Below are positions 20,309 to 59,824 of a stretch of 64,000 bases of DNA, piece after piece. Every line of letters begins with the position of its first letter. The stretch's first letter is position 1. The notes under the pieces were generated by a model. The model had not been told where the DNA came from. It did not search any database and saw only the letters and a list, made by a program, of their open reading frames with translations. The position numbers and the translations under genes were made by a program. The DNA comes from Arthrobacter sp. UKPF54-2 (GTDB lineage: Bacteria > Actinomycetota > Actinomycetes > Actinomycetales > Micrococcaceae), in contig NZ_CP040174.1 of NCBI RefSeq assembly GCF_007858535.1, positions 124,001 through 188,000 of the forward strand, written 5' to 3'.

Positions 20309-23280
<2,972 letters not shown>

Positions 23281-26150: not shown

Positions 26151-26447
26151 GGTCCCCTTGGTGCACCATTATTGACTGCAAAGGTGCCCGGCGGAAGCTT
26201 TTAACCGGCACCGGTTTGCTGCGCATTCGGGAGCCGCCGGCGGCGTGCTGCCTGGCGTAATCCGCGGCTGCACCGGAACCGGCCCGGAATCCTAGCCAAA
26301 GCCGGGCGCCGGCCGTAGTCTTTCCCTAAGCCTGGGCGGATTCCGTGGGTCTCAACGGCTCCTCGCCAGGACCGGGACCGCGCATGCGGCCGCCCGGCCC
26401 TGCCGATGAGCTTCCCGTCCGCCGGGGCACGGATCCGCGGGGGAACG
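26151..26447. promoter_or_regulatory. Divergent intergenic region between the two arms of the polysaccharide island
   Basis: 297 bp between the chain-length gene (minus) and the glycosyltransferase gene (plus). It must hold both promoters. I see an AT-rich patch near 26160-26205 (ATTATTGACTGC, TTTTAACC) suited to the minus-strand gene. TAGTCT (26316-26321) is a possible -10 for the plus-strand gene. No strong palindrome or repeat was seen, and no further gene. Confidence 0.4.
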
Positions 26448-37882: not shown

Positions 37883-37893
37883 GTGCTTCCCCT

Positions 37894-40475: not shown

Positions 40476-41656
40476 TGTCCGGCCCCCAGGCTGCGACGCG
40501 GCGCCCGCCGCCGGTCCCCGGCGCCCGCTTCGGGACGCGTCCGGGCGGTCCGCGTCCGGCGGCCCAGGAGCGTCTCGCAGAGTTGTTCGTAACCGGCCGC
40601 GACGTCGCCCCAGTTGTACCGGCGGGCCAGCTGCTGCGCGTGCCGGCCGCGGTCCTCGGCGTCGGAACCGGGGGCCTCGGCCTCGTCCACCAGCCGGGCG
40701 ACGTCGGCAGGGCCGGCGAAGTACCGGCCGGCGGTCTCGAGCACCTCGCGGTTGAACCCGACGTCGAACGCGTTGGTGGCCGTGCCGGACCCGAGGGCCC
40801 GCAGCAGCGAGGGGTTGGTGCCGCCGACGGAGTGCCCGTGCCAGTACACCAGCGCGTTTGCGTACAGCTGGTCCAGCAGCGTCTGGTCCCAGACGCCGCC
40901 GACAAAGCGGACCCTCTCGTCGCCGAGGGCGTGGACCTCGCGGGTGTACCGGTCCGAGTAGGGTGCGGAGCCGACGACGACGAGCGGCAGCCGGGCGGCG
41001 CTCCGGGCGAACCCTTCGACGATGAGGTGGACGTGGTTTTCGGGCTCGAAGCGGGCGACGACGAGGTGGTAGCCGCGCGGCGCCAGGCCCAGTTCCGGGA
41101 GCCTGTCCGAGCCGGCGTCTGCCTGGATCGGCGCCCCGTAGGCCAGGTACACCGTGTCGGCGTCGAACTTCTCCCGGTAGTAGTCCTGGATGCTGACCGC
41201 GTCGGCGATCAGCGCGTCGGACCACCGGACCGCGAGCCGTTCAACGAGCTGGTAGTAATTCCGGCCCGCCCTGCCCCACTTGGCGCGCTTCCATTCCAGC
41301 CCGTCGACGTGGGTGGCCACGGGGATGCCGGCGGCCTTGATCGCGGGCAGGTAGGGGGCGTTGGCCGCGTTGAAGACGATGGCGGCGTCCGGCCGGTGCC
41401 GGAGCAGGTGGGCGACGGACAGCCCAGTGTGGCTGAGGGTCTCCAGGGACCGTTTGCGCAGCGCCGGCAGGTGCACCAGGTCCATCCCGAGGTGCCGGTC
41501 CGGCCGGTCGCCGCCGCCCGTCTCACGGCAGTAGACGGTGACGCGGTGGCCGCGCTGCACGAGCCGCTGGCCGATTTCCTCGATGGCCGTCTCGAATCCG
41601 CCGTACCGGGCCGGGACACCGCGCGTTCCGACCATCGCGATGTGCAGCCCGCTCAC
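40472..41656 (-). CDS. Glycosyltransferase (GT4, DUF1972/rhamnosyltransferase-like)
   Basis: 394 residues. N-terminal DUF1972-type domain: IAMVGTRGVPARYGGFETAIEEIG, VTVYCRE, HVDGLEWKRAKWG. The C-terminal part has YHLVVARFEPENHVHLIVEGF, VVVGSAPYSDRYT, VRFVGGVWDQTLLDQLYANAL and GHSVGGTNPSLLRAL, the donor-site region. This family includes rhamnosyl- and mannosyl-transferases of capsule and teichoic-like polymers. The GTG at 41656 overlaps the cytidylyltransferase stop (GTGA); an ATG at 41635 is an alternative. The 3' end overlaps the CDP-alcohol phosphotransferase start. Confidence 0.88.
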   Translation of the reverse strand: MSGLHIAMVGTRGVPARYGGFETAIEEIGQRLVQRGHRVTVYCRETGGGDRPDRHLGMDLVHLPALRKRSLETLSHTGLSVAHLLRHRPDAAIVFNAANAPYLPAIKAAGIPVATHVDGLEWKRAKWGRAGRNYYQLVERLAVRWSDALIADAVSIQDYYREKFDADTVYLAYGAPIQADAGSDRLPELGLAPRGYHLVVARFEPENHVHLIVEGFARSAARLPLVVVGSAPYSDRYTREVHALGDERVRFVGGVWDQTLLDQLYANALVYWHGHSVGGTNPSLLRALGSGTATNAFDVGFNREVLETAGRYFAGPADVARLVDEAEAPGSDAEDRGRHAQQLARRYNWGDVAAGYEQLCETLLGRRTRTARTRPEAGAGDRRRAPRRSLGAGQ

Positions 41657-42114
41657 AGCCGCACCCCGTGGAGCCGGTGCCCGGGTTCGGGGGAACGGTT
41701 GATCAGTTCGAGGGCGGTGCGCAGGGCGGAGCTGGACGTCTGCACGGTGTACGGGAAGAAGACAACGTCGACGCCGACCGCCCGGAACGCCGCTTCCAGC
41801 CTGTCGCCCTTGGGGGTGCCCTTCCAGTCGTCGCCCTTGAAAAAGACGTTGAACCGCAGTTCCTCCCAGACCTGGAGCTTGTCCGGGACGGTTTCGGCGT
41901 AGACCTTGTCCACGTAGCCGATGCTGGCGACAATCTCCATCCGCTCGGCCAGCGGGATCACGGGCAGCCGGCCCTTGGCCTGTTCCAGCATTTCGTCCGA
42001 GACGACCCCGGCGACCAGGAAGTCGCACTGGCTCCGGGCGTGCTTGAGGATGTTGAGATGCCCGATGTGGAACAAATCGAACGCCCCCGGCGCGTAACCG
42101 ATTCTGAGACCCAT
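41653..42114 (-). CDS. Glycerol-3-phosphate cytidylyltransferase-like nucleotidyltransferase
   Basis: 153 residues. The HxGH catalytic motif is His16-Ile-Gly-His19 in YAPGAFDLFHIGHLNIL. DEMLEQAKGRLPVIPLAERMEIV and VFFKGDDWKGTPKGD match TagD-type cytidylyltransferases. The terminal loop TVQTSSSALR corresponds to the T-x-x-I-S-S/T-T nucleotide-binding loop. It would make CDP-glycerol or CDP-another-polyol from the polyol phosphate plus CTP. ATG preceded closely by AGGAA. Overlaps the following glycosyltransferase by 4 bp. It starts 39 nt after the priming transferase stop. Exact substrate is not proven by sequence. Confidence 0.88.
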   Translation of the reverse strand: MGLRIGYAPGAFDLFHIGHLNILKHARSQCDFLVAGVVSDEMLEQAKGRLPVIPLAERMEIVASIGYVDKVYAETVPDKLQVWEELRFNVFFKGDDWKGTPKGDRLEAAFRAVGVDVVFFPYTVQTSSSALRTALELINRSPEPGHRLHGVRL

Positions 42115-42153: not shown

Positions 42154-43728
42154 TTAGTAAGCCCCCACCGGGTTCAGGATGACCTTGACGGTTCGCCAGA
42201 GGATCATGATGTCTCCGGTCAACGACCAGTTCTCCACGTAGTAGAGGTCCCAGCGGACACTCTCTTCCCAGCCAAGATTTGACCGGCCGTTCACCTGCCA
42301 CAGCCCGGTGATGCCGGGTTTGATCAGCAGCCGGCGGGTCACGTCGCCCTCGTAGCCCTCCACCTCGCAGGGCAGCTGCGGACGCGGCCCCACCAGGCTC
42401 ATGTCCCCCTTGAGCACGTTCCAGAACTGCGGCAGCTCATCGAGCGAATACTTCCGGAGCCAGCGTCCGCACTTGGTGACCCGCGGATCCTGCTTCATTT
42501 TGAACAGCAGGCCGGCCCCCTCGTTCAGCTCCCTGAGCAGCGCCAGGTCATCCTCCGCGGTCACCACCATGGAGCGGAACTTGATCATCTTGAACCGTTC
42601 GCCGTTGCGGCCGACCCGCTCCTGCTGGAAGAAGACCGGACCCTTGCTGTCACGGGCGATCACCCAGGCCAGGATGCACAGCAGGGGCGAGAGGAGCAGC
42701 AGCGCCGCGGCCGAGGCAACCACGTCGACGAGGCGTTTGAGCGTGTGTTTGCCGCCGCTGAACTCCGGCAGCTCCACGTGCATCAGCGGCAGGCCCTCGA
42801 CGGGCCGCCAGTGGATCCGGGGACCGGCGACGTCGGTCAGGCTGGCGGCCAGGACCAGGCTGGCGTGCGTGCCCTCCAGAGCCCAGCCGAGCTGGCGGAT
42901 CGCCCGGCTTCCGCCGTGCAGCTGTCCGGCGACGACGACGGCGTCGGCCCCGGTCTCCGTGACCTTCCCGGCCACCGAGTCGACATCGCAGAGCACGGGC
43001 ACCCGGGTCGCGGAAATCTGCAGGTGGCTAGCGGTGTAGCCGGCCGGCAGGGCCGCCCCCACCACTTCGTAGGCGGCACCGGACACCTTGCCGAACTGGC
43101 GGATGACGTATTCGACGTCGGCGGGTTCGCCCACCACAATCACTTTGGAGAGGTAGTGGCCGAAGTTGCGCTGGCGGTTCAGCCAGGCCCGCCACCGCCA
43201 CCGGCTCAGCAGGAGCAGCAGCGAACCGGCTGGGAGGGCGATCGCGAAGTGGCTGCGCACCACATCGATTCCCAGCAGCAGGACCACGATGGCGATGCCA
43301 CCGAAGACCCCCACGGTGGCATCCATGACCCGCTTGTATTCCTCGGCCCCGACCCCGAGGACGGTCTCCTCCCGGGTGCGGTGCACTTCGAGGGCGACGA
43401 TCCAGGCCAGGAGGATGGCGATGCTGAGCGAAACGTAGGTGCTGACTGCGGGGGTCCGGGCGAGCACGCCCTCGGCGTCGAGGCGGACCGCGTAGGCCAC
43501 GGCAACCGCACTGGTCACGATGGTGATGTCGGTGAACCGCAGCCAGCGGCGGTAGCGCCGCGCCCAGGACATTCCCGAGTCCACGGGCCGGGCCGCTGCA
43601 GGTTGCCGCCCCGCGGTTGCGGGGTGATCAAACGCCCCGCCTGCGGGCCTTAGGACCCGGGCGGGGCGTCGATTCCAACGACTGCCTCTTTTTCTGTAGC
43701 CGGCGCGGTGTTCGTCTACCGCGCTCAC
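42154..43728 (-). CDS. Polyprenyl-phosphate sugar-1-phosphate transferase (priming enzyme)
   Basis: 524 residues. Four-helix N-terminal membrane region (~65-180), a Rossmann-like middle with VIVVGEPADVEYVI (~200), then a fifth helix and the bacterial sugar-transferase domain: KRLVDVVASAAALLLLSP, FFQQERVGRNGERFKMIKFRSM, KYSLDELPQFWNVLKGDMSLVGPRP, KPGITGLWQVNGRSN and WSLTGDIMILWRTV. This starts the repeat unit by putting a sugar-1-phosphate on undecaprenyl phosphate. GTG at 43728 with GGAATTGCC upstream; the first ~60 residues are polar. First gene of the minus-strand unit; the long leader region upstream is its control region. Confidence 0.93.
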   Translation of the reverse strand: MSAVDEHRAGYRKRGSRWNRRPARVLRPAGGAFDHPATAGRQPAAARPVDSGMSWARRYRRWLRFTDITIVTSAVAVAYAVRLDAEGVLARTPAVSTYVSLSIAILLAWIVALEVHRTREETVLGVGAEEYKRVMDATVGVFGGIAIVVLLLGIDVVRSHFAIALPAGSLLLLLSRWRWRAWLNRQRNFGHYLSKVIVVGEPADVEYVIRQFGKVSGAAYEVVGAALPAGYTASHLQISATRVPVLCDVDSVAGKVTETGADAVVVAGQLHGGSRAIRQLGWALEGTHASLVLAASLTDVAGPRIHWRPVEGLPLMHVELPEFSGGKHTLKRLVDVVASAAALLLLSPLLCILAWVIARDSKGPVFFQQERVGRNGERFKMIKFRSMVVTAEDDLALLRELNEGAGLLFKMKQDPRVTKCGRWLRKYSLDELPQFWNVLKGDMSLVGPRPQLPCEVEGYEGDVTRRLLIKPGITGLWQVNGRSNLGWEESVRWDLYYVENWSLTGDIMILWRTVKVILNPVGAY

Positions 43729-44244
43729 GGCAATTCCACATCTCTCAGTGGTGCAGACCGTTTAAGGGAGCCGGCGGCGGCTGGGGGGAGAGCCTCGGTC
43801 TCAGAAGGCTCTGACGCCGCCGGCTCCGTCTTTGGGGTACGGCTGCCGGCTGGGGCACCGTACGGTTCCAATGAAGGAGTTCGGATATGGGAGGTGTCGA
43901 CGCGGCCACCGTTGCTGGTGGCTCTGGCAATTGCGGCGCTGGAGCTCAGGCTTGTGGCCTTGCTCCTCCGCGGGCGCTGCCCGCAGTCGAATACCGCCCT
44001 GTAGTTACTCATTTTGAGACCTTTGTGAGTCGTTCCTGGGACTGACTTAAGTCAATCGCGGGGGCCTCATCTGCACACGAGTAGGGGTTACCCGACTTCT
44101 CTTGAGGTCGACTCCGGCGAACTACTTAGGCATACTCCCGGGGGGCGCCCGGGTCACGCAGTAGATACGCGGGATCCCCCGTGGCACCAGCGAAAAACCC
44201 TTGAATGGCGCACTCGCGCCCTGCCGGTGCCTGCCCCGCCGCGC
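43729..44244. promoter_or_regulatory. 516-bp control region between the polysaccharide operon and the LAL genes
   Basis: No convincing gene. It holds a 52-codon candidate reading frame (43887-44045, see separate entry), a perfect 12-bp palindrome TGACTTAAGTCA (44043-44054), ACTACTT (44121-44127, the minus-strand AAGTAGT word shared with other LAL upstream regions), and CGAGTA (44078-44083). AT content is higher than its neighbours around 44000-44060. It must contain the promoter for the polysaccharide operon that starts at 43728. Confidence 0.6.
43887..44045 (+). CDS. Possible 52-residue peptide gene
   Basis: A small open frame, with AAGGAG 7 nt before the ATG, coding for a Gly/Ala-rich peptide with Cys16 and Cys23 (GNCGAGAQACG) and ending in FETFVSRSWD. 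No family recognised. It is opposite in direction to the flanking genes and its stop overlaps the TGACTTAAGTCA palindrome. It has a good ribosome site but short length and GC-rich composition make chance plausible. Confidence 0.2.
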   Translation: MGGVDAATVAGGSGNCGAGAQACGLAPPRALPAVEYRPVVTHFETFVSRSWD

Positions 44245-46887
44245 TCACGGCAGCGGAAGATCGCGCTGGATGTCCATCAGCTCGCCGCGGCGGCTGACGC
44301 CGAGCTTGCCGAAGATGCGGTACAGGTGACCTTCGACGGTCCGCTGGGACAGGGTCAGGCGGGCGGCGATTTCGGCGTTCGTGGCCCCGCCGGCCACCAG
44401 CTTCAGGATCTCGGTTTCGCGGGCGGTGAGGTCGGCGTAGTGCTCGCCGCGGACGATGTTCATCTGCCCCGACATGCCGGCGGCGACCATGCGGTGGTGC
44501 ACCTTGCGCTGGACCGCGGTGAGTTTCCATTTGTCCGGGTCATGTTCGAGCAGGTGCGCGGCCTGCTGGGCGGCTTCGAGCGCCAAGAGCAGGTAACCGG
44601 CGCTCAGGGCCTGGTCGCTGAGCGCCATCAGCCGGTTCGAGTCAGAGGCGGCGACGGCGAGCGCGTAGTCCCGCAGCAGGCCCGCCTCCGGGCCCTCCAC
44701 GGCGCCGCTGCTGGCCGCCAGGGCCTCCGCGGCCCCGGTGTCCCCGCCGCGCAGCGCGAGCCGCCTGATGTCCGTTTCCACGGCCCGCAGCCCCTGCCGC
44801 TGTGCCTCGGCGGCGAGCCGGTCAAGTTCCCGGCGGCCGTCGCCGGGAACTTGACCGGAGGCGACCTCCGCGGCAGCGCAGTAGGCCTCCGCGAGGAGCC
44901 GGAGCGTCGCCGGCTCACGGTACCCGGTGCTGCGGAAAGCCAGCGTCTGCTCCGCCGCGTCACCGGGGTGCCCGGCCGCGGCGGCGGCGTAGGCTGCCAC
45001 GGCGTGCGCGAAGGCAAGCAGTTCCCAGGGGTCGGCGATCCGGAGTTCTTCCACCCCCAGCAGCAGCTCGGCGTGGCTCTCCGGGATCCGGCCCTGACGC
45101 AGCCTGGAGTAGCCGCGCATCACGTGCAGCATGCCCCCGCTGTACAGCAGGCGGGGCGACAGGACGGCGGTGTAGTCGTCCAGGGCGGAGGCGAGTTCCT
45201 CCCATTCGCCGGCGCGGATCAGGTTCAGGCAGTGCCGGGCCAGTACGTCCTCATAAACCAGCGGCAGAGCCAGGCCGGTGCCCTGTACCCCGTGCCACGC
45301 TTCCCGGTCGATGCCGAGTCCCGCCAGCACCCGGCCCTGCGCGGTCAGCACCTCCGCCAGGCGGGACACCGCCGGGAGCCGGATTTCCGGGTTGCCCTCC
45401 GCAGCGGCGGCCAGCCCCTGCAGCCGCTCCTTCAGTTCGGCGGTGCGGCCGTCCCAACGCTCCAGCAGCAGGCCGGTGGCCAGGCCCACGGCCGGGCCAC
45501 CCCAGCGCAGCTGATCGGGACCGCCGGTTTCCGCTTCACCGCTGCCGGCGTCGCGCGGAAGGTCAAGGGCAGCGGCGAGGGGCCCGAGCCGGGCGGCCAG
45601 GAGGGCGGCAAGATACGAGGCCCGGCCGTAGCGCACAGGCTGCGCGGCCTCGAGGTAGCCGGCCGACGCCTCGCGCCGGCCCAGGATGTAGTTGGCGTAG
45701 GCCAGTTGGATCCGGCCCTCCGGCAGGAAGCTGTCCTCCCGGATGGCGCCCGCGGCCCGCAGCGCCGTCGCGGCATCCAGGTCGATGTTCGCCGCCGTCG
45801 CCGCCCGGAGCAGCTCCGGGTCCGGGACGTCCGCGCCCGAGTCCAGAGACCAGCGCAGCTGGTTCAGGAAGGCGTCCGGGTGCACCGTGCCCGCCCACGG
45901 CAGCGCCAGCAGGCTGGCCCGGAGACTGGCGCTCCGGCCTGCGGGGACACGGCGGCGGATGATCTCGCCGATGAGCGGGCTGGCGGGCCTGACGATCCGG
46001 TCGCGGTCCCGCGAGACGGTGATGATCCCGGCCATCTCGAGCGCGTCGACGGCCCGGGGGCTGCTGAACCTGAGGATCTGGCCGAGCGAGAGCGGCCCGG
46101 CCAGGGCGACGATCGCTGCGGCCGTCTTTTCCTCCGGGGACATGGAGCGGACCTGGTGGTCCAGCAGGTCCGCGGCCGGAACGTCGCCCAGCTCGGGCGG
46201 AGCCAGGAGGAACCACGCGCCGCGGCGCTGGCCGATGGCTCCGGTGGCGCGGGCGTGCTCGATCAGGGACATCAGCATAAACGGGTTGCCCTCGGTCAGT
46301 TTGGCGAAGAGTTCGCTCACCCAGGGGGACACCTCGGCCCGCAGCACTTGTTCGCAGAGCTGATGCACCTCGGCGCGGCTGAGCGGCGCCAGGTCGAACT
46401 TCGCGATGATGCCGTCATCCCACAGGGCCAGGAACTCCTCGGGGATCAGCGGCCCGGGACGGCAGGTGGCGAGCAGCCGGGCCGCGCCGGTGGCTACCGC
46501 CTGCGCGATGAGCTGGACGGTCCCCCGGTCCAGGCTTTGAGCGTCGTCAACCACGAACAGCGCCAGCGTCGGCTCGGCCCTCAGGCTGGCGGTGACGGCG
46601 CCCAGCACGGCCGTGTAGGAGTCGAGGTCGTGGGCCGGGAGGCCCGCAAGGTAGGGGGTGAGGGCACCGAACGGGACGGCGGCGAGCGCCGGGGTGGCCG
46701 CGAGCCTGATCACCGTTCCGTGGGGGTGCAGTTCCGCCAGGACGGCCTTGACGACGGCGGTTTTGCCGGACCCGGAGCTGCCGACAATCAGAGCCCCGGC
46801 CCTGCCCTCGTCGCGGAGGCAGCGCACCACCTCTTTGACGACGCCGGACCGGCCGATCAGGGTCGCGGCATCAGTCAGGCTTTCCAC
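44245..46887 (-). CDS. LAL-type LuxR-family regulator (fourth of four in transcription order)
   Basis: 880 residues. N-terminal AAA/STAND ATPase: Walker A GSSGSGKT (36-43), VPFGALTPYLAGLP (71-84), Walker B LFVVDDA (110-116). The middle is alpha-helical, TPR-like. C-terminal GerE-type HTH: LTARETEILKLVAGGATNAEIAA then QRTVEGHLYRIFGKLGVSRR. Such proteins activate transcription when bound to ATP and an inducing sugar or other ligand (MalT model). GTG start with GGGAG 10 nt upstream. It is the one nearest to the polysaccharide operon; its stop is 516 bp from that operon's first gene. Gap to the previous regulator is 58 nt, so co-transcription is likely. Confidence 0.92.
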   Translation of the reverse strand: MESLTDAATLIGRSGVVKEVVRCLRDEGRAGALIVGSSGSGKTAVVKAVLAELHPHGTVIRLAATPALAAVPFGALTPYLAGLPAHDLDSYTAVLGAVTASLRAEPTLALFVVDDAQSLDRGTVQLIAQAVATGAARLLATCRPGPLIPEEFLALWDDGIIAKFDLAPLSRAEVHQLCEQVLRAEVSPWVSELFAKLTEGNPFMLMSLIEHARATGAIGQRRGAWFLLAPPELGDVPAADLLDHQVRSMSPEEKTAAAIVALAGPLSLGQILRFSSPRAVDALEMAGIITVSRDRDRIVRPASPLIGEIIRRRVPAGRSASLRASLLALPWAGTVHPDAFLNQLRWSLDSGADVPDPELLRAATAANIDLDAATALRAAGAIREDSFLPEGRIQLAYANYILGRREASAGYLEAAQPVRYGRASYLAALLAARLGPLAAALDLPRDAGSGEAETGGPDQLRWGGPAVGLATGLLLERWDGRTAELKERLQGLAAAAEGNPEIRLPAVSRLAEVLTAQGRVLAGLGIDREAWHGVQGTGLALPLVYEDVLARHCLNLIRAGEWEELASALDDYTAVLSPRLLYSGGMLHVMRGYSRLRQGRIPESHAELLLGVEELRIADPWELLAFAHAVAAYAAAAAGHPGDAAEQTLAFRSTGYREPATLRLLAEAYCAAAEVASGQVPGDGRRELDRLAAEAQRQGLRAVETDIRRLALRGGDTGAAEALAASSGAVEGPEAGLLRDYALAVAASDSNRLMALSDQALSAGYLLLALEAAQQAAHLLEHDPDKWKLTAVQRKVHHRMVAAGMSGQMNIVRGEHYADLTARETEILKLVAGGATNAEIAARLTLSQRTVEGHLYRIFGKLGVSRRGELMDIQRDLPLP

Positions 46888-46945
46888 TCAGGGCCACTCC
46901 CGCCGCCGTGGACCGCGTCCGGGGCCGCGGAGGGCCCCGCGCGGG

Positions 46946-49690
46946 TCAACCGATGCGGGCGCTGGCCGCCGGTCCCGAGATGACATCTTTGAGCTCCGAT
47001 CGGCTGGCGACATGGAGTTTTGCGTACACCTGGTACAGGTGGCCCTCGACTGTGCGGACCGAGACGTGCATCTGTTCGGCGATCTTGCGGTTCGAGATTC
47101 CGGCGGCGGCCCGGACGGCGACTTCGCACTCCCGGGCGGTCAGGGTGGAGGTGGTCAGCGAGTGAAGGCCGTTTTTCGGGCTGCCGAACCGGTCGTCCAG
47201 GGACTGTTCGGTGCGTTGGGAGACACGGAGCGCAATCCGGTTTCCGGCTTCGTTGGCGCAGTAGACGGCGCGGCGGGCCACATCCCGGGCGAACACCGCG
47301 TTCCCCGAGGCGTCGGCGTCCCTGGCAACGGCCAGCAGCTGCTCGCTGGCGCAGTCCTTCACACCGTCGGCCAGCCGCAGGCAGAGCAGGGCGAACTGCC
47401 CGGTCACCCGGCCGGCGAGGCCGGCGAGCTTCTGGCACAGCTGCCGGTCCCCGAGCCTGGCCGCGGCGGACAGGAAGAGCAGCGCGGTGGCCGTGGCGCC
47501 GGCGTCGGCGTCGGCGTCCGAATCGGTGACGAGGCTGCGGATCGCCGCGGGCCGCTGGCCGAGTTCGGCCAGCGCGCACAGTTCGAAGTACCGGGTCATC
47601 CGGTCCACCAGCCAGGGGCTGGCCAGCTGGGGCTGTCCCGCCTCGGCGAGCAGCAGGCTGGCCCGTTCCTCGTCCCCGGCGAGTCCGGCGGCGTAGGCGC
47701 AGGCCGCCGTGGCCAGTCCGGACAGGGCATCGGGGTCCTGCATCCGCAACTGCCACATCCCGGCCTCGAGCCACGGGCCGGCGGCCTCCAGGTTGCCGGC
47801 GTGCAGGTCGATCACGCCTTGGACGATCTCGAACATCCCGCCGAGGCGCGTCTGCGGCTCGGCGGTGCCCGACGTGGCCGTGAGGAAGGCTGACGCCTCG
47901 CGGAACTTCGCCGAGAGCAACATCAGCAGCAGGAACCTCCCCCTGATCTCACGGACGGCCCGGTCGGACATCGGCACGGTGGAGGCCGCGGCTACGACCT
48001 GCTTGCCCAGGGCCATGGCCCCAAGGACGTTGCCGGTGACGGACATCGCCTCGCAGAAGATGCTGGCGGTCAGGAGCCCGGTTTCGGTTCCCAGCTCGGT
48101 GTCCATCCCGGCCTGCACGGCCAGGACGTCGGCGTAGCGGCCCTCGAAGGCTGCCAGTTTCACCTCGGCCAGCCGCAGCTGTTCCCGGGCCGGCTCCAGT
48201 CCCTCCGCCTCGTCCGCGGCGGGTCCGTAGAGACGGTCGCGGACCACGTCCAGCCTGGCCCGGGCACCGGCCGCGGTGGCGGCGCTGCGCAGGTCCAGGT
48301 CCACCCGCAGCAGCTGCAGGGCAACCCACTCGGCCAGCGGGCGCCCGGCGCCGCCGGAGCCGTCGGAGCTGTCAAGGTTATGGAGCAGTCGCCGCGCGGA
48401 TTCGTCGTTGTTGACCCCCAGCTGGGCGTGCACGGATTCGATGGCGACTCCGGCGAGCGCCTCGCCGCCGTCGATTTCGTGGATAAACCGCAGCGCCGAG
48501 GTTGGATCCGAGGCGTTGTTGGCCAGGTGGGCGGCGGCCAGGGCGGTGGCGGAGCTGATCTGTTCCCCGCAGTCCAGGGCCCACGCGACGTCGGCGGAGC
48601 CGGTGGGTTCGCCCGGGTCAGTATCGGCCAGCACCGCGGTCAGGCGGCGCCGGAGCTCGGCGCTGCGGCCCGGCGGGACGACGCTGGCGACGATCGCGGC
48701 GGTCACCGTGTTGGCGACGCTGACCATGGGCGGGTGGTCGTGGCTGACCTGGATCAGCGCCCGCTCCTGCAGGTTGTCCATGTCCTGCGGGTTGAAGATC
48801 CGCATGAGCGTCTGCAGCGGCACCGCGCCGGCGAGGGAGAGGAGTTCAAAAACATCGCGCTGGCCGGGGCTGAGCCGGTTCAGCCGCGCTTTGACGACAT
48901 CGCGCACTTCCCCCGTCAGGGCGATGGAGCGGCCGCCCTGGACCCATGCGCCCTCCTGCCGCACGATCGTGCCGAGCTTGATCTGTTCCCGGGCCAGGGA
49001 ATGCAGGAACAGGGCGTTTCCGCCGCTGGCACTCCAGAGCGCGCGGGCAGCCGTGTGGGAAAAGTGGCCGCCGTATTCCTGGTTCAGCGTGGCGGCCGTC
49101 TCGGCGAAATCGAACGGCTCCAGGTCCACGCGGCGGAGCAGGTCATCCTTCCAGAGCCCCATGATGTCGCCGCCCACATGGGGCAGGTCAACGCACGCGG
49201 CCAGCAGGGTCACGTGGCCACCGGCGCTGAGCTGGGCGACCATCATGCAGGACAAGTCATCCAGGTCGTGGGCGTTGTCCACGAACAGGACAATGGCGCG
49301 CCCCTGGGCTTTGGCGTGCAGGAGCTGGGTGAGACCGCGCAGCACCATCAGCGGGTGTTCCAGATGGGAGGCGTCGAGGTCGTTGAGCAGCACACTCAGT
49401 GCGCCGTACGGGAGTTTGGATGAAATGGAACTGCCCCGGACCTGGACAACCAGGTAGTCGTCGCCGAGTTGCTCAAGGGTGCGCTGGGCGATGAAGGATT
49501 TTCCGGCCCCGTGCTCCCCCACCAGGACGACGCCGCAGCCCGATCCTGAGGTCAGGGTTTCAAGGACGTCCGCCACGATGTGCTGGCGGGTAAAGGGTTT
49601 TTCCTGCCGCCCCTGCGGGGGGCGTTGCGCTGGTGGAATCGCGTCCGTTTTGCCGCTGCCCGCGGGCACGCCGGCTTCTTGCTGAAACAT
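46946..49690 (-). CDS. LAL-type LuxR-family regulator (third of four)
   Basis: 914 residues. Walker A GEHGAGKS (58-65), LPYGALSVLLNDLD (93-106), Walker B VLFVDNAHD (134-142). A ~650-residue helical region with no recognised domain follows, then the GerE HTH at the C-terminus: LTARECEVAVRAAAGISNRKIAE and VRTVEGHLYQVYAKLHVASR. The ATG at 49690 is preferred over an in-frame TTG at 49711; GAAGG lies ~11 nt upstream. It has its own 225-bp upstream region carrying two AAGTAGT and two TACTCG words. Ligand and targets unknown. Confidence 0.92.
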   Translation of the reverse strand: MFQQEAGVPAGSGKTDAIPPAQRPPQGRQEKPFTRQHIVADVLETLTSGSGCGVVLVGEHGAGKSFIAQRTLEQLGDDYLVVQVRGSSISSKLPYGALSVLLNDLDASHLEHPLMVLRGLTQLLHAKAQGRAIVLFVDNAHDLDDLSCMMVAQLSAGGHVTLLAACVDLPHVGGDIMGLWKDDLLRRVDLEPFDFAETAATLNQEYGGHFSHTAARALWSASGGNALFLHSLAREQIKLGTIVRQEGAWVQGGRSIALTGEVRDVVKARLNRLSPGQRDVFELLSLAGAVPLQTLMRIFNPQDMDNLQERALIQVSHDHPPMVSVANTVTAAIVASVVPPGRSAELRRRLTAVLADTDPGEPTGSADVAWALDCGEQISSATALAAAHLANNASDPTSALRFIHEIDGGEALAGVAIESVHAQLGVNNDESARRLLHNLDSSDGSGGAGRPLAEWVALQLLRVDLDLRSAATAAGARARLDVVRDRLYGPAADEAEGLEPAREQLRLAEVKLAAFEGRYADVLAVQAGMDTELGTETGLLTASIFCEAMSVTGNVLGAMALGKQVVAAASTVPMSDRAVREIRGRFLLLMLLSAKFREASAFLTATSGTAEPQTRLGGMFEIVQGVIDLHAGNLEAAGPWLEAGMWQLRMQDPDALSGLATAACAYAAGLAGDEERASLLLAEAGQPQLASPWLVDRMTRYFELCALAELGQRPAAIRSLVTDSDADADAGATATALLFLSAAARLGDRQLCQKLAGLAGRVTGQFALLCLRLADGVKDCASEQLLAVARDADASGNAVFARDVARRAVYCANEAGNRIALRVSQRTEQSLDDRFGSPKNGLHSLTTSTLTARECEVAVRAAAGISNRKIAEQMHVSVRTVEGHLYQVYAKLHVASRSELKDVISGPAASARIG

Positions 49691-49765
49691 GGGAGAGACC
49701 TTCGCAATCAATGTTTAACCAGTGATAGGTCAACGCTAGGGACCGGCCGCGGCGAAGGCATCCGT

Positions 49766-49858
49766 AAGTAGTACTCGATTGCCAGGCGGGTACGGCGCGG
49801 GTGCCTACGCGGCTGTACTCGGATTCCGCCGGCCTCCCGGGACCGCGGACCAAGTAGT
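49766..49858. promoter_or_regulatory. Repeated AAGTAGT / TACTCG words upstream of the third LAL gene
   Basis: AAGTAGT occurs at 49766-49772 and 49852-49858. TACTCG occurs at 49772-49777 and 49816-49821, each followed by an ATT. The first pair overlaps as AAGTAGTACTCG. The words recur near the other LAL genes (ACTACTT at 44121, CGAGTA at 44078, AAGTAG at 55436). They lie in the 225-bp space between two LAL genes and may be operators of a LuxR-type protein. Inferred from recurrence only. Confidence 0.5.
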
Positions 49859-49915
49859 CACCGACGGACTTCGAGTGCTCCCGGCCGTAGTGCGCCGGGG
49901 CCGGGCAGGCAACAC

Positions 49916-52642
49916 CTACTCCTCGGCCATCCGGCGGAGTTCCTCGCGCCCCTTGACGTTCAGCTTGGCGTAGCTGCGGTACAGGTGGCCCTCTACGGTG
50001 CGGACGGAGACCTGCAGATCGGCGGCGATCTGCCGGTCGCTCAGGCCCCGGACCGCCAGCGCCACGATGTCGCGTTCCCGGCGGGTCAAGAGCCCGAGGG
50101 TGTCGTCCTGGCCGGCGGGTTCATCCCCGGGAGCGCTGTCGGCACGATCACGGCACCGCTGCCGCTGGGCCGCGGCCATCCGCTCCCGCAGGCTGTCTCC
50201 GGCGGCATGGTAGGCAGTGGCGGCGTCACCGTACGCCAGCGCTGCGAAGCCCCACAGTTCGGCTTCCTCGCAGGTCTTGGCGGCGTCGAGCAGCTCGCCG
50301 GGGAGCCCGGTTCCGATCGCCGCGGCGTACCCGCAGATGGCCCCCGCCCGGCGTCCTTCCAGTTCTGGTTTGAGTTCGCGCAGCCGCACCGCGGCCTCCG
50401 TGTCGCCGAGGGCCAGCCGGAGGGTCAGCGAATCGAACTCCAGTCCCGCGGTGTTGCCGTCGCCGTCGGGGTTTCCGAGCCGTTGCAGTTCCTCCGCCGC
50501 GCGGCGGTAGCCGCCGAGCCGGGCCTTGCCGTACACCACGGCCATGGCGGCGAGGGCGCGCAGGTAGCGGGAGACGGGCGGGCGGGCGGATTCGTAGTCC
50601 GCCAGGAACCCGGCGGCCTTTTCCGTGAAGCCGGCGTCGGCGGCGGCGGCAAACGCCATCGCGGCGGTCAGCGAGAACAGCTGCTGGGGGTCGGCCAGCC
50701 GCAGGGCTTCGAGGGCTGCCCGCAGCGTGCGTTTGGCCTCGGCGGCCCGGCCCTGGTAGAGCAGCACGATCCCGGCGGCGGTGTGGACGCCGCCGCCGAA
50801 GGTGATCAGGCTGGGCCCGAACCCGGCCACGAAGCCCTCGAGCAGGCTGTCCGCGGCGTTCCAGTCCCCGCCGTGGATCGCCGCCGTGACGGCGCGGACC
50901 ACCAGGAAATCGGAGAGGAAGTACAGTTCGTCGTGTTCGGTCCCGGCCGCCTGCAGGGCGGCGGCGGCCACCGTGTAGGCGCTCTCCGGCTTCCCCGCAA
51001 CCAGCAGTTGTTCCGCTTCCAGCGCCAGCCCGAAGGCCCCCTCGAGGTTACTGGCCGGCGGCTGCCCCTCGTCCGGACCGGCCGCGCCGGCAGCGTCCGC
51101 GTCCCCGGCGAGGGCCAGGACCATCGCGCGGATGGTCCGCACCCGCTCCCGCGTCGCGGCGAGGATGCCCTCGGCGTCGGCGGGGTTGTCCGCGGCCAGC
51201 CGTTCGCCGGCGCGGAGCAGCGCCTCGGCGCGCTGCATGATGTCCGCCGGGGTGTGTCCGAGCGCGGAGAGGACCGCCGCCCACAGCAGCGAGCCCGTCA
51301 GCAGGCTGTCCACGGTGCGTCCCTTGGCGAAATCCACCTCCAGGATGTCCCGTGCCGCCGCGTGGTTGGAGGTGTTGTAATACGTCCGGGCGATCACCGC
51401 CCGGGCCGTGATCTGCAGTTCAGGGTCCTTGACCTGCGCGGCCGCCTTGCGGGCAAGTTCGTCTTCGAAGAGCCTGCCGGCCAGGATCGCGGCCCGGAGC
51501 AGCTGGCGGTCTTCGACCTCGACGCCGCATTCCATCGACCAGCTCACCTGCCGCAGGAGCCCCTCGGCCGAGGCGGGTTCCCGGTCCATCAGCCGCAGCA
51601 GGCTCTGGCGGAGCTGCAGGCTGCGTGCGGGGGAAACCAGGTTCCGCAGCGTGTCGCCGTAGACGGTGTGCCAGAGCCGCAGTTCGGGCTCAGACCCCTC
51701 GGAGATGCGGAGGAGTTCCTGTTCGACCAGCCCCGCGACGGTGGATTCGTCCACCATGGCCTCGATCAGGGCCTTGGACACCGGCTCGGCCAGCGCCACG
51801 AGGTTCAGTGCCTTGCGTTCGTCGGCGGGGCGCCGGAGCAGCTGGCGGCGGACGACGTCGGTGAGCCGTTCGCCGTGGCTGTTCAGCGGCCGGGCGAGCA
51901 GCCACACCCCGTTGCGCTGGAGCAGGGTGCCGTCGCTGATCGCGTCGTCCACCAGGCAGCTCAGCAGCAGCGGGTTGCCGCCGGAGGCCTCCCACAGAAC
52001 CTCGGCGACATTGGGCAGGACCTGGCGCCCGAGCCGGTGCGCCAAGGCTTCGGTCGTTTGCTCCCGGGTGAGCGGGCGCAGGTCGTGGCGTTCGGCGATG
52101 CCCTCGAACCAGAGCTGCAGGAGTGGCTCGGGCAGGCCAGGGCGGGCCGCCGCGCCCACCAGCAGCTTGGCCCAGCCGGCGGCGGCGAGTTCCACCAGCA
52201 CCCCCGCCGTTGCCTCGTCCAGGTCGTGGGCATCGTCGACAATCAGCAGCAGCGGCTTCTGCGTTGTCCGCCGTTGCCCTTCCAGGTAGCTCCAAAAGGT
52301 CCGGAGCACGGCCAGTTGGGAGGTGGCGTCCTCCACGGGCAGGTCCACGATGAACGGCGCGAGCACGCCGTAGGGCACGTGGCTCAGCGCCGGGCTGCCG
52401 TGCAGACGCACCGGGGTCACCTGGCCGCGGAGCTCCTCGGCCACGGCCTCCATCAGCTGCGATTTGCCGATTCCGTGGTCACCGAGCAGCAGCACGGCCC
52501 CGTGCGTGCCGCCCTGGAGTGCCTCCACCGCGGATGCGAGGTCTTCCGAGCGTCCGGCCAGGACACCCTGCCGGGCTTCGCCGGGAGCGGCTGCCGCTGC
52601 GGCTGCGGCTGTGCGGACCCTAGATGAGTCCAAGCAGATCAC
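49916..52642 (-). CDS. LAL-type LuxR-family regulator (second of four)
   Basis: 908 residues. After a poly-Ala N-terminus (~11-19): Walker A GDHGIGKS (54-61), VPYGVLAPFIVDLP (89-102), Walker B LLLIVDDAHD (131-140). It has the standard long helical middle, and the C-terminal GerE HTH: LTRRERDIVALAVRGLSDRQIAA then VRTVEGHLYRSYAKLNVKGR. GTG at 52642 is the only reasonable start I see. It overlaps the 3' end of the first LAL gene by 23 bp, so translation of the two is coupled. Ligand and targets unknown. Confidence 0.9.
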   Translation of the reverse strand: MICLDSSRVRTAAAAAAAAPGEARQGVLAGRSEDLASAVEALQGGTHGAVLLLGDHGIGKSQLMEAVAEELRGQVTPVRLHGSPALSHVPYGVLAPFIVDLPVEDATSQLAVLRTFWSYLEGQRRTTQKPLLLIVDDAHDLDEATAGVLVELAAAGWAKLLVGAAARPGLPEPLLQLWFEGIAERHDLRPLTREQTTEALAHRLGRQVLPNVAEVLWEASGGNPLLLSCLVDDAISDGTLLQRNGVWLLARPLNSHGERLTDVVRRQLLRRPADERKALNLVALAEPVSKALIEAMVDESTVAGLVEQELLRISEGSEPELRLWHTVYGDTLRNLVSPARSLQLRQSLLRLMDREPASAEGLLRQVSWSMECGVEVEDRQLLRAAILAGRLFEDELARKAAAQVKDPELQITARAVIARTYYNTSNHAAARDILEVDFAKGRTVDSLLTGSLLWAAVLSALGHTPADIMQRAEALLRAGERLAADNPADAEGILAATRERVRTIRAMVLALAGDADAAGAAGPDEGQPPASNLEGAFGLALEAEQLLVAGKPESAYTVAAAALQAAGTEHDELYFLSDFLVVRAVTAAIHGGDWNAADSLLEGFVAGFGPSLITFGGGVHTAAGIVLLYQGRAAEAKRTLRAALEALRLADPQQLFSLTAAMAFAAAADAGFTEKAAGFLADYESARPPVSRYLRALAAMAVVYGKARLGGYRRAAEELQRLGNPDGDGNTAGLEFDSLTLRLALGDTEAAVRLRELKPELEGRRAGAICGYAAAIGTGLPGELLDAAKTCEEAELWGFAALAYGDAATAYHAAGDSLRERMAAAQRQRCRDRADSAPGDEPAGQDDTLGLLTRRERDIVALAVRGLSDRQIAADLQVSVRTVEGHLYRSYAKLNVKGREELRRMAEE

Positions 52643-55382
52643 TCCGCGAGGACACTCCGAGCTTCGTGAATACCTGGTACAAGTGCCCCTCCACTGTCCG
52701 AACCGAGATGCCCACTTCCAGGGCGATGTCTTTGTTGGAAACCCCGTTGCCAGCGAGCGCCGCGATTTGCCGCTCCCGCTCGGTCAGCAGCGGACCCTTG
52801 TTGCGCGGAACGACCGGCAGGGCCGGGACCGAGTCGGACAAGGATTCCAGCATGCTGTGCGCTGCCGTGGCGCTGCCGGCCAGCCCTGCGGCCTTGGCAA
52901 AATCGAAGGCGAGGGCCGCGCACCTGGCCTGGACGGCGTCGAGCTCCAGGGCGGCGGCGAGCTCCGCCGCTTCGAGCATGGTCACGGCGTCCTTTTTGCG
53001 GCTGCCGACCGCCACCACCCGGGACAGCTCCGCCAGCGGGCCCTCCCGCAGCGCGGCGATCTCCTCCAGGAACTGGAAGTCCTTGACGGTGCCGTTGACG
53101 GTTGCGCCGAACATACTGATGCCGGCCAGGGTGTAGAGCCCGTTCCGGAAGTGCCGCTCGGCGGCGTGGACCAGCCGGTCCTTCGCGTCGGGGTCGCCCA
53201 GCCACCGGGAGGCCATGTCCATGCAGAACTCCGCCGAACTGCTGACGACAAAGCGCGCCGGGCCATCCGCGGACCGGGCACGCTCCAGGTAGACGGTGGC
53301 CTGCACGGAGTTCCCCATCTGTGCGTAGGCAAAGGCGGTGGCGGCGTAGGCCTGGCGCAGCGCGTGCAGGCTGGTCCTGACTTCCAGCTGGGCGATCGCG
53401 GCCAGCAGCGGGTCCAGTGCCAGGTAGCCGCGGCCGGCATACACGTAGGCGAGTCCGACGGCGAGGTCGGTGGCGGCGCTGCCGGAGTGCAGGCCGTGCC
53501 CGGCGCGGCCGCTCGCGTCCTTGAGCATGTCGATGCTCTGGCGCCACTGGCCGGAGAGCAGCAGGACATTAAAGGAACGCCAGGCGAAGTTCTCCCTGAT
53601 CCGCGGGACGTTGGCCCATTCACCAAGCCGTCCGCCGATGTCCCGCATCAGCGCCCGGGCCTGCAGTTCCTTGCCCGTCAGGCACAGGGCCTCCATCAGG
53701 ATGATCGAGGTGCGCAGCCGGTGCACCGGGTCGATGGCGTCAGTATCGGCACTCGATGCGGCGGCGAGCCGGTCCATCATCGGCTCGTAGTCGCCGATGA
53801 AGGACAGGTAGTTGAACTCGCTGAGGTCAAGGCACAGGCCGGCGCGGGCCAGCGCCGCGGCGTCGGCGTCGGCGTCGGGGTCACTGTCCGCCTTTTCGCG
53901 GCGGAACTCCTGCAGCCGCAGGCGGGCCTGCCGGATCAGCTCCGGGACCTTCCCGCTGCGGTCCTCCAGCCAGGCCATGCAGTCAGCCTTGGCCGCGATC
54001 AGCTCGGCAAAGGCCTCGGGGGCGAGGGCATTGATCTGCGCCTCGGTGACGTCGTCGAGGGCGGACATCGCCTGCAGCGGCAGGCCCAGCTGCAGGTACG
54101 CGGCGGCTTTCTGCAGCTGCCCCCCGGGCCATTCGCTGTCGCCCGGTGCGATGCTCCCGGCGCATTTGAGCGCGAATTTCGGGTCGAAGAGGCGGACGGC
54201 TGCCTGGGCGGCAGCCAGTGCGTGGGCAGGCGCCAGCTCGGCGTGGCAGTCGTGGGTCCACGCCGCGTAGGCGAGCAGGTCCTCCACGGTCAGTTCCCCG
54301 AGTTGGTGGACCTGGTGGCCGGGGACCTTGTCGCGCAGTTCGAGCCGCCGTTCCACGCTGAGCCAGTTCCGCACGATGTCGCCCAGGTACCGGTCACCGA
54401 GCGTCACGAAGTGCCGGTCGGTGCGGTCGACGACGATCTGCCCCGCCTCCTCCATGTCCGCGATCAGTCCCGGCCCGTACATTCTTGCCAGCCGCGACAG
54501 CGACATGCTGCGGGCGCAGGAGAGAACCTCGATGACCTCGCGCGCCTCGGGCGACTCCCGGGCGTAGCGCGCCCTGACGATGTCCTCCAGCGCGGTTTTG
54601 CCCTCCAGCACCACCTCGTCGAGAAGGGTCCAGACCGAACCGGAGAGCACGAGGTTGCCGCGTTCGATCTGCTCGGAGACAACGGCCTGCAGGAGGGTGG
54701 GGCTGCCGCCGACCAGCTCGTGCATCTGGGTGGCCAGGGCGGTCGACACCCGGTGCCCGAGTGCCGCCTGGAGCACCTCGCGGGTTTCGATCTCGGTCAT
54801 GCCGGCGAGCCGGACCTCGGCGAGCTGCCCGGAGGTGATGAGCCAGTAGAAGTCCGGCGGAAGATCGGTGGCGCGCTGCGCGGTGGCGATCAGCCGGGCG
54901 GTGCCGGTCTGCAGCAGGTTCAGCAGCACCCCGGTGCTTTGCTCGTCGAGGGAGCCCGCATTGTCCACCAGGATCACGCACTTGCGTCCCGCCGCGTCGT
55001 TGCGGATCAGCGAGGTGATCCCGTGCAGGATCGCCGTCGGCGAGCCGAGCGAGCTCTGCGGGAGGCGGGCGAGGGTGAACGCGAGGCAGCCGTAGGGGGT
55101 GGCGGCGCCGGGGCCGGAGGTGCGCAGCTGCAGGCTGTAGACGTCGGGGCCGAAGCCGGCGAGGGCGCTGCGGCCGACGAGGGATTTCCCGACGCCGCGG
55201 TCCCCGGTGATGACCACGCCCATGCTCTCGGGCGCGGTGAGGGCAGACCGGACACGGTCGGCGTCTGCGCCGCGGGCCAGTCCTGACCACGCGTGTCTGT
55301 TCACCGGCCCCGCGGCGTGCTGATCTTCGGCGGGCGCCAATGTAATGGAAACATTCCCCCAGCCCAGCGAATCCCTCGACAT
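52620..55382 (-). CDS. LAL-type LuxR-family regulator (first of four)
   Basis: 920 residues. Walker A GDRGVGKS (60-67), TPYGCLAFTLARLP (95-108), Walker B VILVDNA (136-142); the canonical second Walker B acid (DD) is DN here, as also in the third copy. Helical middle region, then GerE HTH: LTERERQIAALAGNGVSNKDIAL and VRTVEGHLYQVFTKLGVSSR. ATG with AAAGGAA upstream. It begins the four-gene run; the 141-bp region between it and pth is presumably the run's promoter. Ligand and targets unknown. Confidence 0.92.
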   Translation of the reverse strand: MSRDSLGWGNVSITLAPAEDQHAAGPVNRHAWSGLARGADADRVRSALTAPESMGVVITGDRGVGKSLVGRSALAGFGPDVYSLQLRTSGPGAATPYGCLAFTLARLPQSSLGSPTAILHGITSLIRNDAAGRKCVILVDNAGSLDEQSTGVLLNLLQTGTARLIATAQRATDLPPDFYWLITSGQLAEVRLAGMTEIETREVLQAALGHRVSTALATQMHELVGGSPTLLQAVVSEQIERGNLVLSGSVWTLLDEVVLEGKTALEDIVRARYARESPEAREVIEVLSCARSMSLSRLARMYGPGLIADMEEAGQIVVDRTDRHFVTLGDRYLGDIVRNWLSVERRLELRDKVPGHQVHQLGELTVEDLLAYAAWTHDCHAELAPAHALAAAQAAVRLFDPKFALKCAGSIAPGDSEWPGGQLQKAAAYLQLGLPLQAMSALDDVTEAQINALAPEAFAELIAAKADCMAWLEDRSGKVPELIRQARLRLQEFRREKADSDPDADADAAALARAGLCLDLSEFNYLSFIGDYEPMMDRLAAASSADTDAIDPVHRLRTSIILMEALCLTGKELQARALMRDIGGRLGEWANVPRIRENFAWRSFNVLLLSGQWRQSIDMLKDASGRAGHGLHSGSAATDLAVGLAYVYAGRGYLALDPLLAAIAQLEVRTSLHALRQAYAATAFAYAQMGNSVQATVYLERARSADGPARFVVSSSAEFCMDMASRWLGDPDAKDRLVHAAERHFRNGLYTLAGISMFGATVNGTVKDFQFLEEIAALREGPLAELSRVVAVGSRKKDAVTMLEAAELAAALELDAVQARCAALAFDFAKAAGLAGSATAAHSMLESLSDSVPALPVVPRNKGPLLTERERQIAALAGNGVSNKDIALEVGISVRTVEGHLYQVFTKLGVSSRSDLLGLI

Positions 55383-55523: not shown

Positions 55524-56111
55524 CTACGTCGCCTTCGCGGGGTGGAACTTCTGCTGGGCGGCCTGCAGCCCGTCGCGGACCAACGCCTCGACGGCGTCGG
55601 CAGCGGTGTCAATCAGGAACGGCAGTTCCTTCTTCTCCGCCGTCGCGAAGTCCCGCAGCACAAAGTCGGCGGTGTCCATCCGGCCCGGCGGCCGGCCCAC
55701 CCCGACGCGGACCCGCAGGTAGTCCTTGGTGGCCAGCGCCTTGGAGATGTCGCGGAGGCCGTTGTGGCCGCCTTCGCCGCCGCCGATCTTCAGTTTGACC
55801 GTATTAAAAGGAATGTCGATCTCGTCGTGGACGGCAATGACGTGGGCGGGGTCGACGTCATAGAACTTCGCCAGCGCGGAGACCGGGCCGCCGGAGACAT
55901 TCATGTAACTCAGCGGCTTGGCCAGCACCACCCGCGGGCCGCCGATGCCCAGTCTGCCTTCGAGGACCTGGGCGCGGGACTTGTGCGACTTGAAACCGCC
56001 GCCGACCCGGGCCGAGAGTTCATCGAGCACCATCTGGCCGACGTTGTGCCGGTTGTGGGCGTACTCGGTGCCCGGATTGCCGAGGCCTACGATCAGCCAG
56101 GTGTCGGTCAT
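55524..56111 (-). CDS. pth: Peptidyl-tRNA hydrolase
   Basis: 195 residues. Releases tRNA from stalled peptidyl-tRNA. The family signature is complete: [21 protein letters not shown] with catalytic His22, then [46 protein letters not shown] and FVLRDF. The frame is open to 56204, but the ATG at 56111 has AAGGATGG upstream and starts where the family does. It is the last of the rplY-pth pair; core gene order is typical of actinobacteria. It is also the boundary to the accessory LAL/polysaccharide island. Confidence 0.97.
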
Positions 56112-56221
56112 GGGTCCATCCTTCTCATGGGCGGCGGGCAGGGGGTCGGGCAGGGCGGCGGGCGCGGAGACGACGGCGGCCGGGCCCCATCGGGACCCGG
56201 CCACCTGAGAATACGCCGGAA

Positions 56222-59752: not shown

Positions 59753-59824
59753 TTCCGCCCATAGGACTCGAACCTATACTCCACGGCTCCAAAGGCCGGG
59801 GTGCTGCCATTACACCAGAGCGGA
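59753..59824 (-). tRNA. tRNA-Gln (anticodon UUG)
   Basis: Minus-strand cloverleaf of 72 nt. 7-bp acceptor stem (TCCGCTC 59824-59818 with GGGCGGA 59760-59754, one G-U pair), D-arm TGGTGTAATGGCAGCAC, anticodon loop CTTTGGA giving UUG, and a T-arm TATAG-GTTCGAG-CTATG pattern. The discriminator base is A; CCA is not encoded. The 27-43 pair of the anticodon stem is a C-U mismatch, which is minor. It lies upstream of glmU on the same strand. Confidence 0.93.

Follow-up and report, generated by a model that had tools for sequence, protein, structure and literature searches.

The window analysed here is a 64,000-nt stretch of the one-contig, 3.52-Mb genome of Arthrobacter sp. UKPF54-2 (NZ_CP040174.1, positions 124,001–188,000, forward strand), and it carries four consecutive genes for large ATP-binding regulators of the LuxR family (LALs), called D, C, B and A below in their upstream-to-downstream order, beside an exopolysaccharide (EPS) operon. 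The four genes are, almost beyond doubt, two tandem copies of one unit in which a type I LAL gene is followed by a type II LAL gene (D-C and B-A). Sequence comparison further suggests, with a probability that we put at roughly 0.57, that such I-II pairs act as MalT-like switches that drive EPS and other envelope genes through a promoter element of fixed geometry, referred to here as the box. The four genes are as follows:

52620..55382, minus strand: LAL D, 920 aa; type I, first of pair 1; Walker A GDRGVGKS, Walker B VDNA
49916..52642, minus strand: LAL C, 908 aa; type II, second of pair 1; Walker A GDHGIGKS, Walker B VDDA
46946..49711, minus strand: LAL B, 921 aa; type I, first of pair 2; Walker A GEHGAGKS, Walker B VDNA
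44245..46887, minus strand: LAL A, 880 aa; type II, second of pair 2; Walker A GSSGSGKT, Walker B VDDA

All four products have the features that define LALs, namely very large size, an N-terminal Walker A ATPase and a C-terminal LuxR/GerE helix-turn-helix (HTH): GerE (PF00196) matches A, B, C and D with 50–55 bits (E 2.4e-13 to 5.9e-15; Pfam cut-off 23.5), and AAA_16/AAA_22 match all four, in A and D below the Pfam cut-offs. The whole genome has eight GerE matches, and the four outside the array lie in frames of 246–326 aa. The first-pass annotation of this stretch had described four giant open reading frames (ORFs) in one direction, each with a Walker A, a P[YF]GxL and an RTVEGHLY[RQ] motif, and we find all three motifs in 4/4 proteins, encoded on the minus strand and 880–921 aa long. 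Its spacing holds for the C/D overlap of 23 bp and the A-B gap of 58 bp, and the B-C gap it gave as 225 bp is 204 bp (a later ATG is a possible alternative start for B). The DD/DN difference it noted is real, and relatives of like type share it: VDDA with an R following HLY in A and C, VDNA with a Q there in B and D. Of the residues expected of STAND proteins (signal transduction ATPases with numerous domains), A and C have Walker A and both Walker B acids, and the second of these acids is missing from B and D.

The pairwise organisation is evident from gene order, spacing and phylogeny. The large tree contained 312 distinct LALs of ≥780 aa from the loci collected (near-identical copies and proteins <780 aa removed; the count of distinct LALs is 321 under a slightly different identity rule), and typing from a midpoint-rooted FastTree, which left 8/369 LAL ORFs untyped, divides the LALs into two lineages, type I including D and B and type II including C and A. 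Among 112 unique runs, 46 are I-II, 39 are I-II-I-II, nine are I-II-II, and a few have other orders. The I>II junctions (n=143) have a median gap of −4 bp, with 124 at ≤60 bp, and the II>I junctions (n=44) have a median of 237 bp, with none at ≤60 bp. In a 55-protein IQ-TREE (mixture model, quick search) one branch (SH-aLRT 100) sets apart all 25 pair-first proteins and another (SH-aLRT 99) all 24 pair-second proteins, and six LALs from outside pairs place next to type II; proteins were named here by gene order, which equals the earlier type, except that the five-gene run at L177 was named by profile type, and L182 and L133 are long-branched. The annotation had proposed a tree of the four; the tree places D with B in type I and C with A in type II, and an A+B clade, picked as the rival after the first tree had been seen, is rejected by the approximately unbiased (AU) test (p-AU 1e-6). 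The duplicated unit is thus the pair, because I-II order, junction spacing, tree topology and the rejection of A+B all point to it, and the annotation's idea of four independent sensors gives way to two I-II pairs. On these trees type I and type II are old, separate lineages.

The residue after HLY also follows type among the Arthrobacter proteins (type I, Q in 136/153; type II, R in 150/151); it was dropped as a universal mark of type, ten type I proteins of another family carrying R or K. A third, type II-like STAND protein follows the pair at L104:9158-11776 (minus strand) and in the same place at L061, L065, L067, L091, L106–L108, L187 and L188. Pfam finds no GerE domain in the L104 protein, the sole one scanned, which is possibly a partner that lacks DNA binding.

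The two types mostly differ in their ATPase motifs. The second Walker B acid is thought to be needed for ATP hydrolysis, and type I proteins have it replaced in 130/153 cases (N 100, T 24, G 4, K 1, S 1) and retain the Walker A lysine in 150/153 (the other three being gaps), and type II proteins keep the second acid in 152/159 and the lysine in 137/159. The type I state looks derived, because LALs from other families of the class (L197–L204, taken irrespective of their neighbours) have DD in 8/8; these were the only proteins read from a class-wide type I profile search of 296 genomes, which gave many matches. Among the proteins read from the other family, type I has N in 10/10 and type II the acid in 8/10. 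In MalT, ATP hydrolysis returns the protein to rest (PMC4381067; statements from this and the other articles cited are taken from parts of their text), and a hydrolysis-poor subunit should therefore prolong the active state. By this analogy the type I subunit would be hydrolysis-poor and extend the active, ATP-bound state.

How closely are the pairs tied to polysaccharide genes? The local landmarks are the following:

55524..56204, minus strand: pth, upstream neighbour of pair 1, with rplY, prs and glmU further upstream
42154..43728, minus strand: EPS polyprenyl glycosylphosphotransferase (PF02397; TIGR03025 414 bits, cut-off 295.55)
20309..21724, minus strand: SufS-type aminotransferase, in relatives without the EPS insert the gene next after the LALs

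The array thus has glmU-prs-rplY-pth upstream of D-C-B-A and the EPS operon after A, with polysaccharide genes (~22–44 kb) between A and sufS. The usual order in the genus is glmU-prs-rplY-pth-LALs-sufS-sufU and, further on, a gene c8 (~1240 aa) that we take to be mfd. D and C are adjacent in 36/36 same-genus genomes, with pth upstream in 35 (in G032 the contig begins at D, and in G030 the LAL genes are in pieces), and the run is accordingly not due to chance. Ten of these 36 genomes also carry A and B there, namely the close relatives G024, G018, G010, G014, G019, G032 and G031 and the distant G020, G012 and G022. For 103 unique pair-bearing runs, an uneven sample since the loci were picked by similarity, an EPS-type transferase occurs in 24 (≤10 kb downstream or inside the run, before any sufS; L102 is counted for a remnant, and L103 counts twice because the transferase splits its run), a ugd-gmd-deacetylase cluster in 20 (likewise ≤10 kb downstream and ahead of any sufS), sufS is reached first in 51, and eight are of other kinds or too short. 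The EPS operon and other glycan genes are frequent, not obligatory, neighbours of the pairs, because D and C occur together in all 36 genomes and the EPS transferase in 24/103 runs.

Outside the genus, type I profile matches occur in 26/41 genomes of a genus of another family (G219 has a fragment only; in nine of these genomes proteins of both types were read). Of the 26, 25 have a PF02397 transferase: 23 carry it on the contig and strand of the LALs, 1.2–11.9 kb past the last LAL match, and G297 and G307 have it on a different contig; among the 15 genomes of that genus without a type I match, six have a PF02397 gene. The nine other-family loci read have no pth. Pairs also adjoin a transferase away from pth within the family, in a second copy in G024 (L135) and in G253 (L182), and at L133, and the LALs that lack a type partner at six loci (L186, L191, L192, L193, L194 and L196) have no transferase match within their 20 kb. 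The surface-glycan link drawn by the annotation is thus borne out by the 24/103 EPS-type and 20/103 ugd-gmd-deacetylase runs, by 23/26 genomes of the other family and by the shared promoter element described below. The annotation had taken a run lying far from polysaccharide loci in relatives, together with no effect of its deletion on the operon, as telling against the link, and half of this is seen: 51/103 runs lead to sufS with neither kind of cluster between, and G018 has all four LAL genes and no PF02397 gene in its genome. Two relatives have unusual arrangements. G032 has a transferase remnant between A and sufS (L102:12165-12632), and the cluster was therefore probably lost there; G031 has the EPS-type transferase between C and B (L103:8320-9918), separating the two pairs, and a large malectin-domain protein after A on the opposite strand.

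Footprinting revealed conserved blocks ahead of B and ahead of the EPS operon. In LAL-to-transferase gaps (16 of 20 kept; L101, L021, L029 and L102 were omitted as near copies of the window clade) the 7-mer TACTCGT occurs in 11/16 (expected 0.62), the top ratio of the 40 commonest 7-mers, and GGTCTCA is likewise frequent (12/16, expected 1.11); in shuffles some GC-rich 7-mer reached 13/16, so the TACTCGT count is not by itself decisive. A T[AT][AG][AG]NT hexamer lies exactly 20 bp downstream of 40 of 111 distinct TACTCGTG sites (orthologous copies included), other offsets gave ≤7, and the best of 60 scrambled octamers reached 10. The consensus of these 40 sites added an upstream GTA, and the resulting complete pattern, GTA-N5-TACTCGTG-N20-TWRNNT, is matched 78 times across 80 genomes, its reversed form not once. 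An earlier, looser motif, CGAGTASNNNTTAC, had been dropped (26 matches in 16 genomes, 43 for its reversed control; one match in G010 inside an ORF) and was replaced by this N20 element. The box precedes some pairs, and in the window it is found as follows:

44050..44091, minus strand: box ahead of the EPS operon, GTA-N5-TACTCGTG-N20-TTGACT; sole exact match in the 3.5-Mb genome
49733..49774, minus strand: degenerate box ahead of B, GTA-N5-TACGGATG-N20-TAGCGT, in a stretch with blocks conserved in relatives
43725..44012, minus strand: small ORF of 95 aa (four relatives have 99 aa), which follows the box and overlaps the start of the sugar transferase

The EPS promoter box lies 38 bp before the start of the 95-aa ORF, and the EPS operon probably starts near 44012. 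Exact matches occur in 30/43 same-genus genomes and in 2/5 pair-bearing genomes of other genera of the family, and there are none in six same-family genomes without a type I match, 19 other-family genomes (nine with pairs) and seven others. Among the 80 genomes searched the box was thus found only in pair-bearing genomes, where genomes were taken to lack pairs after three candidates had been scored in each. Loci near pairs were the source of the box; 13 of the 78 matches lie ≤1 kb from a LAL gene and 65 elsewhere, many being orthologous copies of few sites.

With one mismatch allowed and the hexamer restricted to TAGNNT, the Arthrobacter sp. UKPF54-2 genome has four sites, including the EPS promoter box. 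One lies 161 bp ahead of a three-gene operon just left of the window:

L206:3465-7886 (G000:C1:117465-121886), left of the window: PelF operon, encoding a protein with ~11 hydrophobic segments, PelF (NF038011, 244 bits; cut-off 100) and a GHL15 hydrolase

No match to the operon's first protein turned up among the 23 relatives searched, and the other two sites (909533 and 2530661) precede no gene that could be named. In G024 the EPS transferase is on another contig with a one-mismatch site ~208 bp before its ORF, and the pair B2-A2 beside this relocated transferase has an exact box; neither the PelF operon site nor the relocated transferase site was used in building the box. G007, G017 and G021 have a box 2.9–4.2 kb from the transferase and oriented away from it. 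Fourteen kinds of gene that follow off-locus boxes were scanned, and seven look envelope-related, with secretion judged by eye: LysM, GH16, an epimerase with a UDP-sugar dehydrogenase, a polysaccharide deacetylase, an LGFP/lyase-like protein, a related protein without a Pfam match and a GDSL hydrolase. In eight genomes (L231:1598-2350 and seven further loci) related genes begin 46–99 bp from the box's first base; L231 and L251, the two scanned, encode ANTAR-domain regulators, a hint of an antitermination layer. Similar box-like sites lie at L262:1501 (G000), L214:1892 (G024) and L215:2163 (G018), followed in G024 and G018 by an unnamed small ORF.

If the hexamer served as a −10 element, the box would lie at about −48 to −33 and cover the −35 region, an activator placement of Class II geometry. 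We infer DNA binding, heteromers and ligands, and the mechanism that we favour would run as follows. Each I-II pair would form a MalT-like heteromeric STAND switch whose TPR-like (tetratricopeptide repeat-like) sensors bind a sugar or envelope cue; ATP-bound I and II would assemble on boxes over the −35 region and recruit RNA polymerase to EPS genes, envelope genes and the pairs' own promoters; and the hydrolysis-poor type I would lengthen the ATP state that type II resets. Judged by the comparisons above, the pairs likely control EPS and some envelope genes, and a heteromer with divided ATPase roles is plausible. A bolder version, in which the pair is an obligate heteromeric bacterial STAND activator, with D-C stacked over B-A and the EPS operon as a two-tier envelope switch with its own promoter code and as a bacterial counterpart of paired NLRs (nucleotide-binding leucine-rich repeat receptors), is possible, with the odds somewhat against it. 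The annotation's interpretation is partly supported, and its four sensors become a paired regulator that has been duplicated and that has a candidate promoter code.

Several observations weigh against this paired switch acting through the box. Pair-bearing genomes often lack an exact box (13/43 in the genus, 3/5 in other genera of the family, 9/9 in the other family); the GTA was added only after the consensus had been seen, and the octamer-N19-21-hexamer pattern without it, since dropped, gives 39 matches and its reversed control 41 (25 genomes). Pairwise comparison of the window genome's own EPS, C-B and Pel upstream regions is no better than shuffles. Of 54 PF02397 matches in 37 same-genus genomes, only six have a box at ≤5 kb (an exact one, or one with a single mismatch in the five genomes so searched), and neither the second transferase of the window genome (1.43 Mb) nor the G010 transferase (4.05 Mb) coincides with one. 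Seven of the 14 scanned gene kinds look unrelated to the envelope or are unclear (ANTAR, small membrane protein, SSB, enolase-like, alpha/beta-hydrolase, tetrapyrrole methylase and thymidylate-kinase-like), and the 51 runs that lead to sufS have no EPS-type or ugd-gmd cluster between. As for the ATPase, 23/153 type I proteins keep the second Walker B acid; one clade shows a loss in the type II partner instead, at the Walker A lysine (19/19). Both the paired switch and its obligate-heteromer version are weakened because only half of the scanned targets are envelope-like and the shorter pattern shows no excess.

Could the box be that of a different regulator, or of an alternative sigma factor, with the pairs and the EPS genes among its targets and the pairs lower in the network? 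No direct evidence links the LAL HTH to the box, which is missing from many pair-bearing genomes and is also carried by an ANTAR regulator gene; however, the 20-bp octamer-hexamer spacer exceeds the usual sigma-70 spacer of ~17 bp, and the box is absent from the searched genomes without a pair match, and we regard this explanation as unlikely. Ordinary tandem duplication might alternatively have given four independent, homomeric MalT-like LALs, each with its own ligand. The Walker A lysine and the HTH are kept in all four, B, C and D are only 25–31% identical to A, and homomeric action of each member is compatible with the I-II order, the spacing and the tree; yet that constant order, the tight spacing found only within I>II junctions, the two deep lineages and the rejected A+B clade make this quite unlikely. 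Four unrelated regulators were also considered and are ruled out by order, gaps and tree.

The neighbourhood itself might mislead if the pth-sufS interval were an insertion hot spot where an EPS cluster landed beside housekeeping LALs with another role. LALs are indeed in every same-genus genome examined and the EPS cluster is not, and G032 retains only the transferase remnant between A and sufS. Nevertheless, pairs adjoin transferases at the pth-less loci L135, L133 and L182, the transferase is downstream in 23/26 other-family genomes with no pth in the nine loci read, and the box recurs at unlinked envelope genes, so that we consider this explanation very unlikely.

The closest known system is MalT of E. 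coli, like the present proteins a large LuxR-type HTH protein with an ATPase, which multimerises with ATP and binds its boxes cooperatively (PMC4381067, PMC10427625); the type II profile matches MalT chain 1hz4 over positions 484–685 (E 2.1e-7). MalT is one gene product that binds maltotriose, whereas here two adjacent paralogues differ at the hydrolysis motif, and the match to NCBIfam PRK04841 (26–31 bits, cut-off 537) does not indicate orthology. Mycobacterial IniR, with an ATPase and a MalT-III-like domain, is an actinobacterial STAND regulator tied, as proposed here, to the cell envelope, and it controls a cell-envelope operon in response to trehalose (PMC5760070); it is a single regulator, no pair being mentioned in the part of that article available, and orthology is again not indicated (NF038181, 36–42 bits for A, C and D, cut-off 750; B not listed), nor is it with AbsR2 (NF050132, 81–111 bits, cut-off 850). 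More than one LAL per cluster has precedent: PikD, RapH, NysRI/NysRIII and AmphRI/AmphRIII lie inside clusters of the pathways they regulate (PMC3282765), although their targets are antibiotic clusters. The larger AirR proteins of Arthrobacter sp. UMCV2 (507–916 aa) cluster with LALs, and airR3 and airR5 are among those induced >10-fold by dimethylhexadecylamine (PMC9659744); the available part of that article mentions no pairs, pth locus or EPS link. Plant paired NLRs are genetically linked STAND pairs that work jointly (PMC12405136), but they are immune receptors, not transcription activators, and the likeness is in logic only. In the titles and abstract openings of the open-licence PMC literature we found no description of the I-II pair or of the box, and the LALs met in the articles read are treated as single-gene regulators, mostly with no ligand assigned. 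The comparison now makes available a defined pair unit, a likely division of ATPase labour, a promoter element of fixed geometry and candidate targets, so that EPS control in this group and a possible obligate heteromery of bacterial STAND regulators become directly testable in soil bacteria.

The remaining genes of the neighbouring cluster are these:

40472..42028, minus strand: GT4-type glycosyltransferase; top NCBIfam match a rhamnosyltransferase, under its cut-off
33332..38548, minus strand: large PKD/laminin-G protein, which recurs in related clusters
29163..30128, plus strand: GT2 glycosyltransferase
27485..29170, plus strand: Wzx-type flippase (Polysacc_synt_3 above cut-off)
26406..27608, plus strand: GT4 glycosyltransferase
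24678..26150, minus strand: Wzz/EPS tyrosine autokinase (TIGR01007 and Wzz above cut-off)
23305..24624, minus strand: Wzy-like polymerase (many hydrophobic segments)

Together with the priming sugar phosphotransferase, the Wzx, Wzz/kinase and Wzy-like proteins (Wzy_C slightly below its cut-off) make this a Wzx/Wzy-type EPS cluster. A long RNA hairpin ahead of the transferase (z −4.79) was not called a regulatory element; it falls inside the 95–99-aa ORF common to relatives, and Rfam at gathering threshold has no match at it. The sole Rfam match across the window at that threshold is a tRNA gene near glmU (59753–59824, minus strand).

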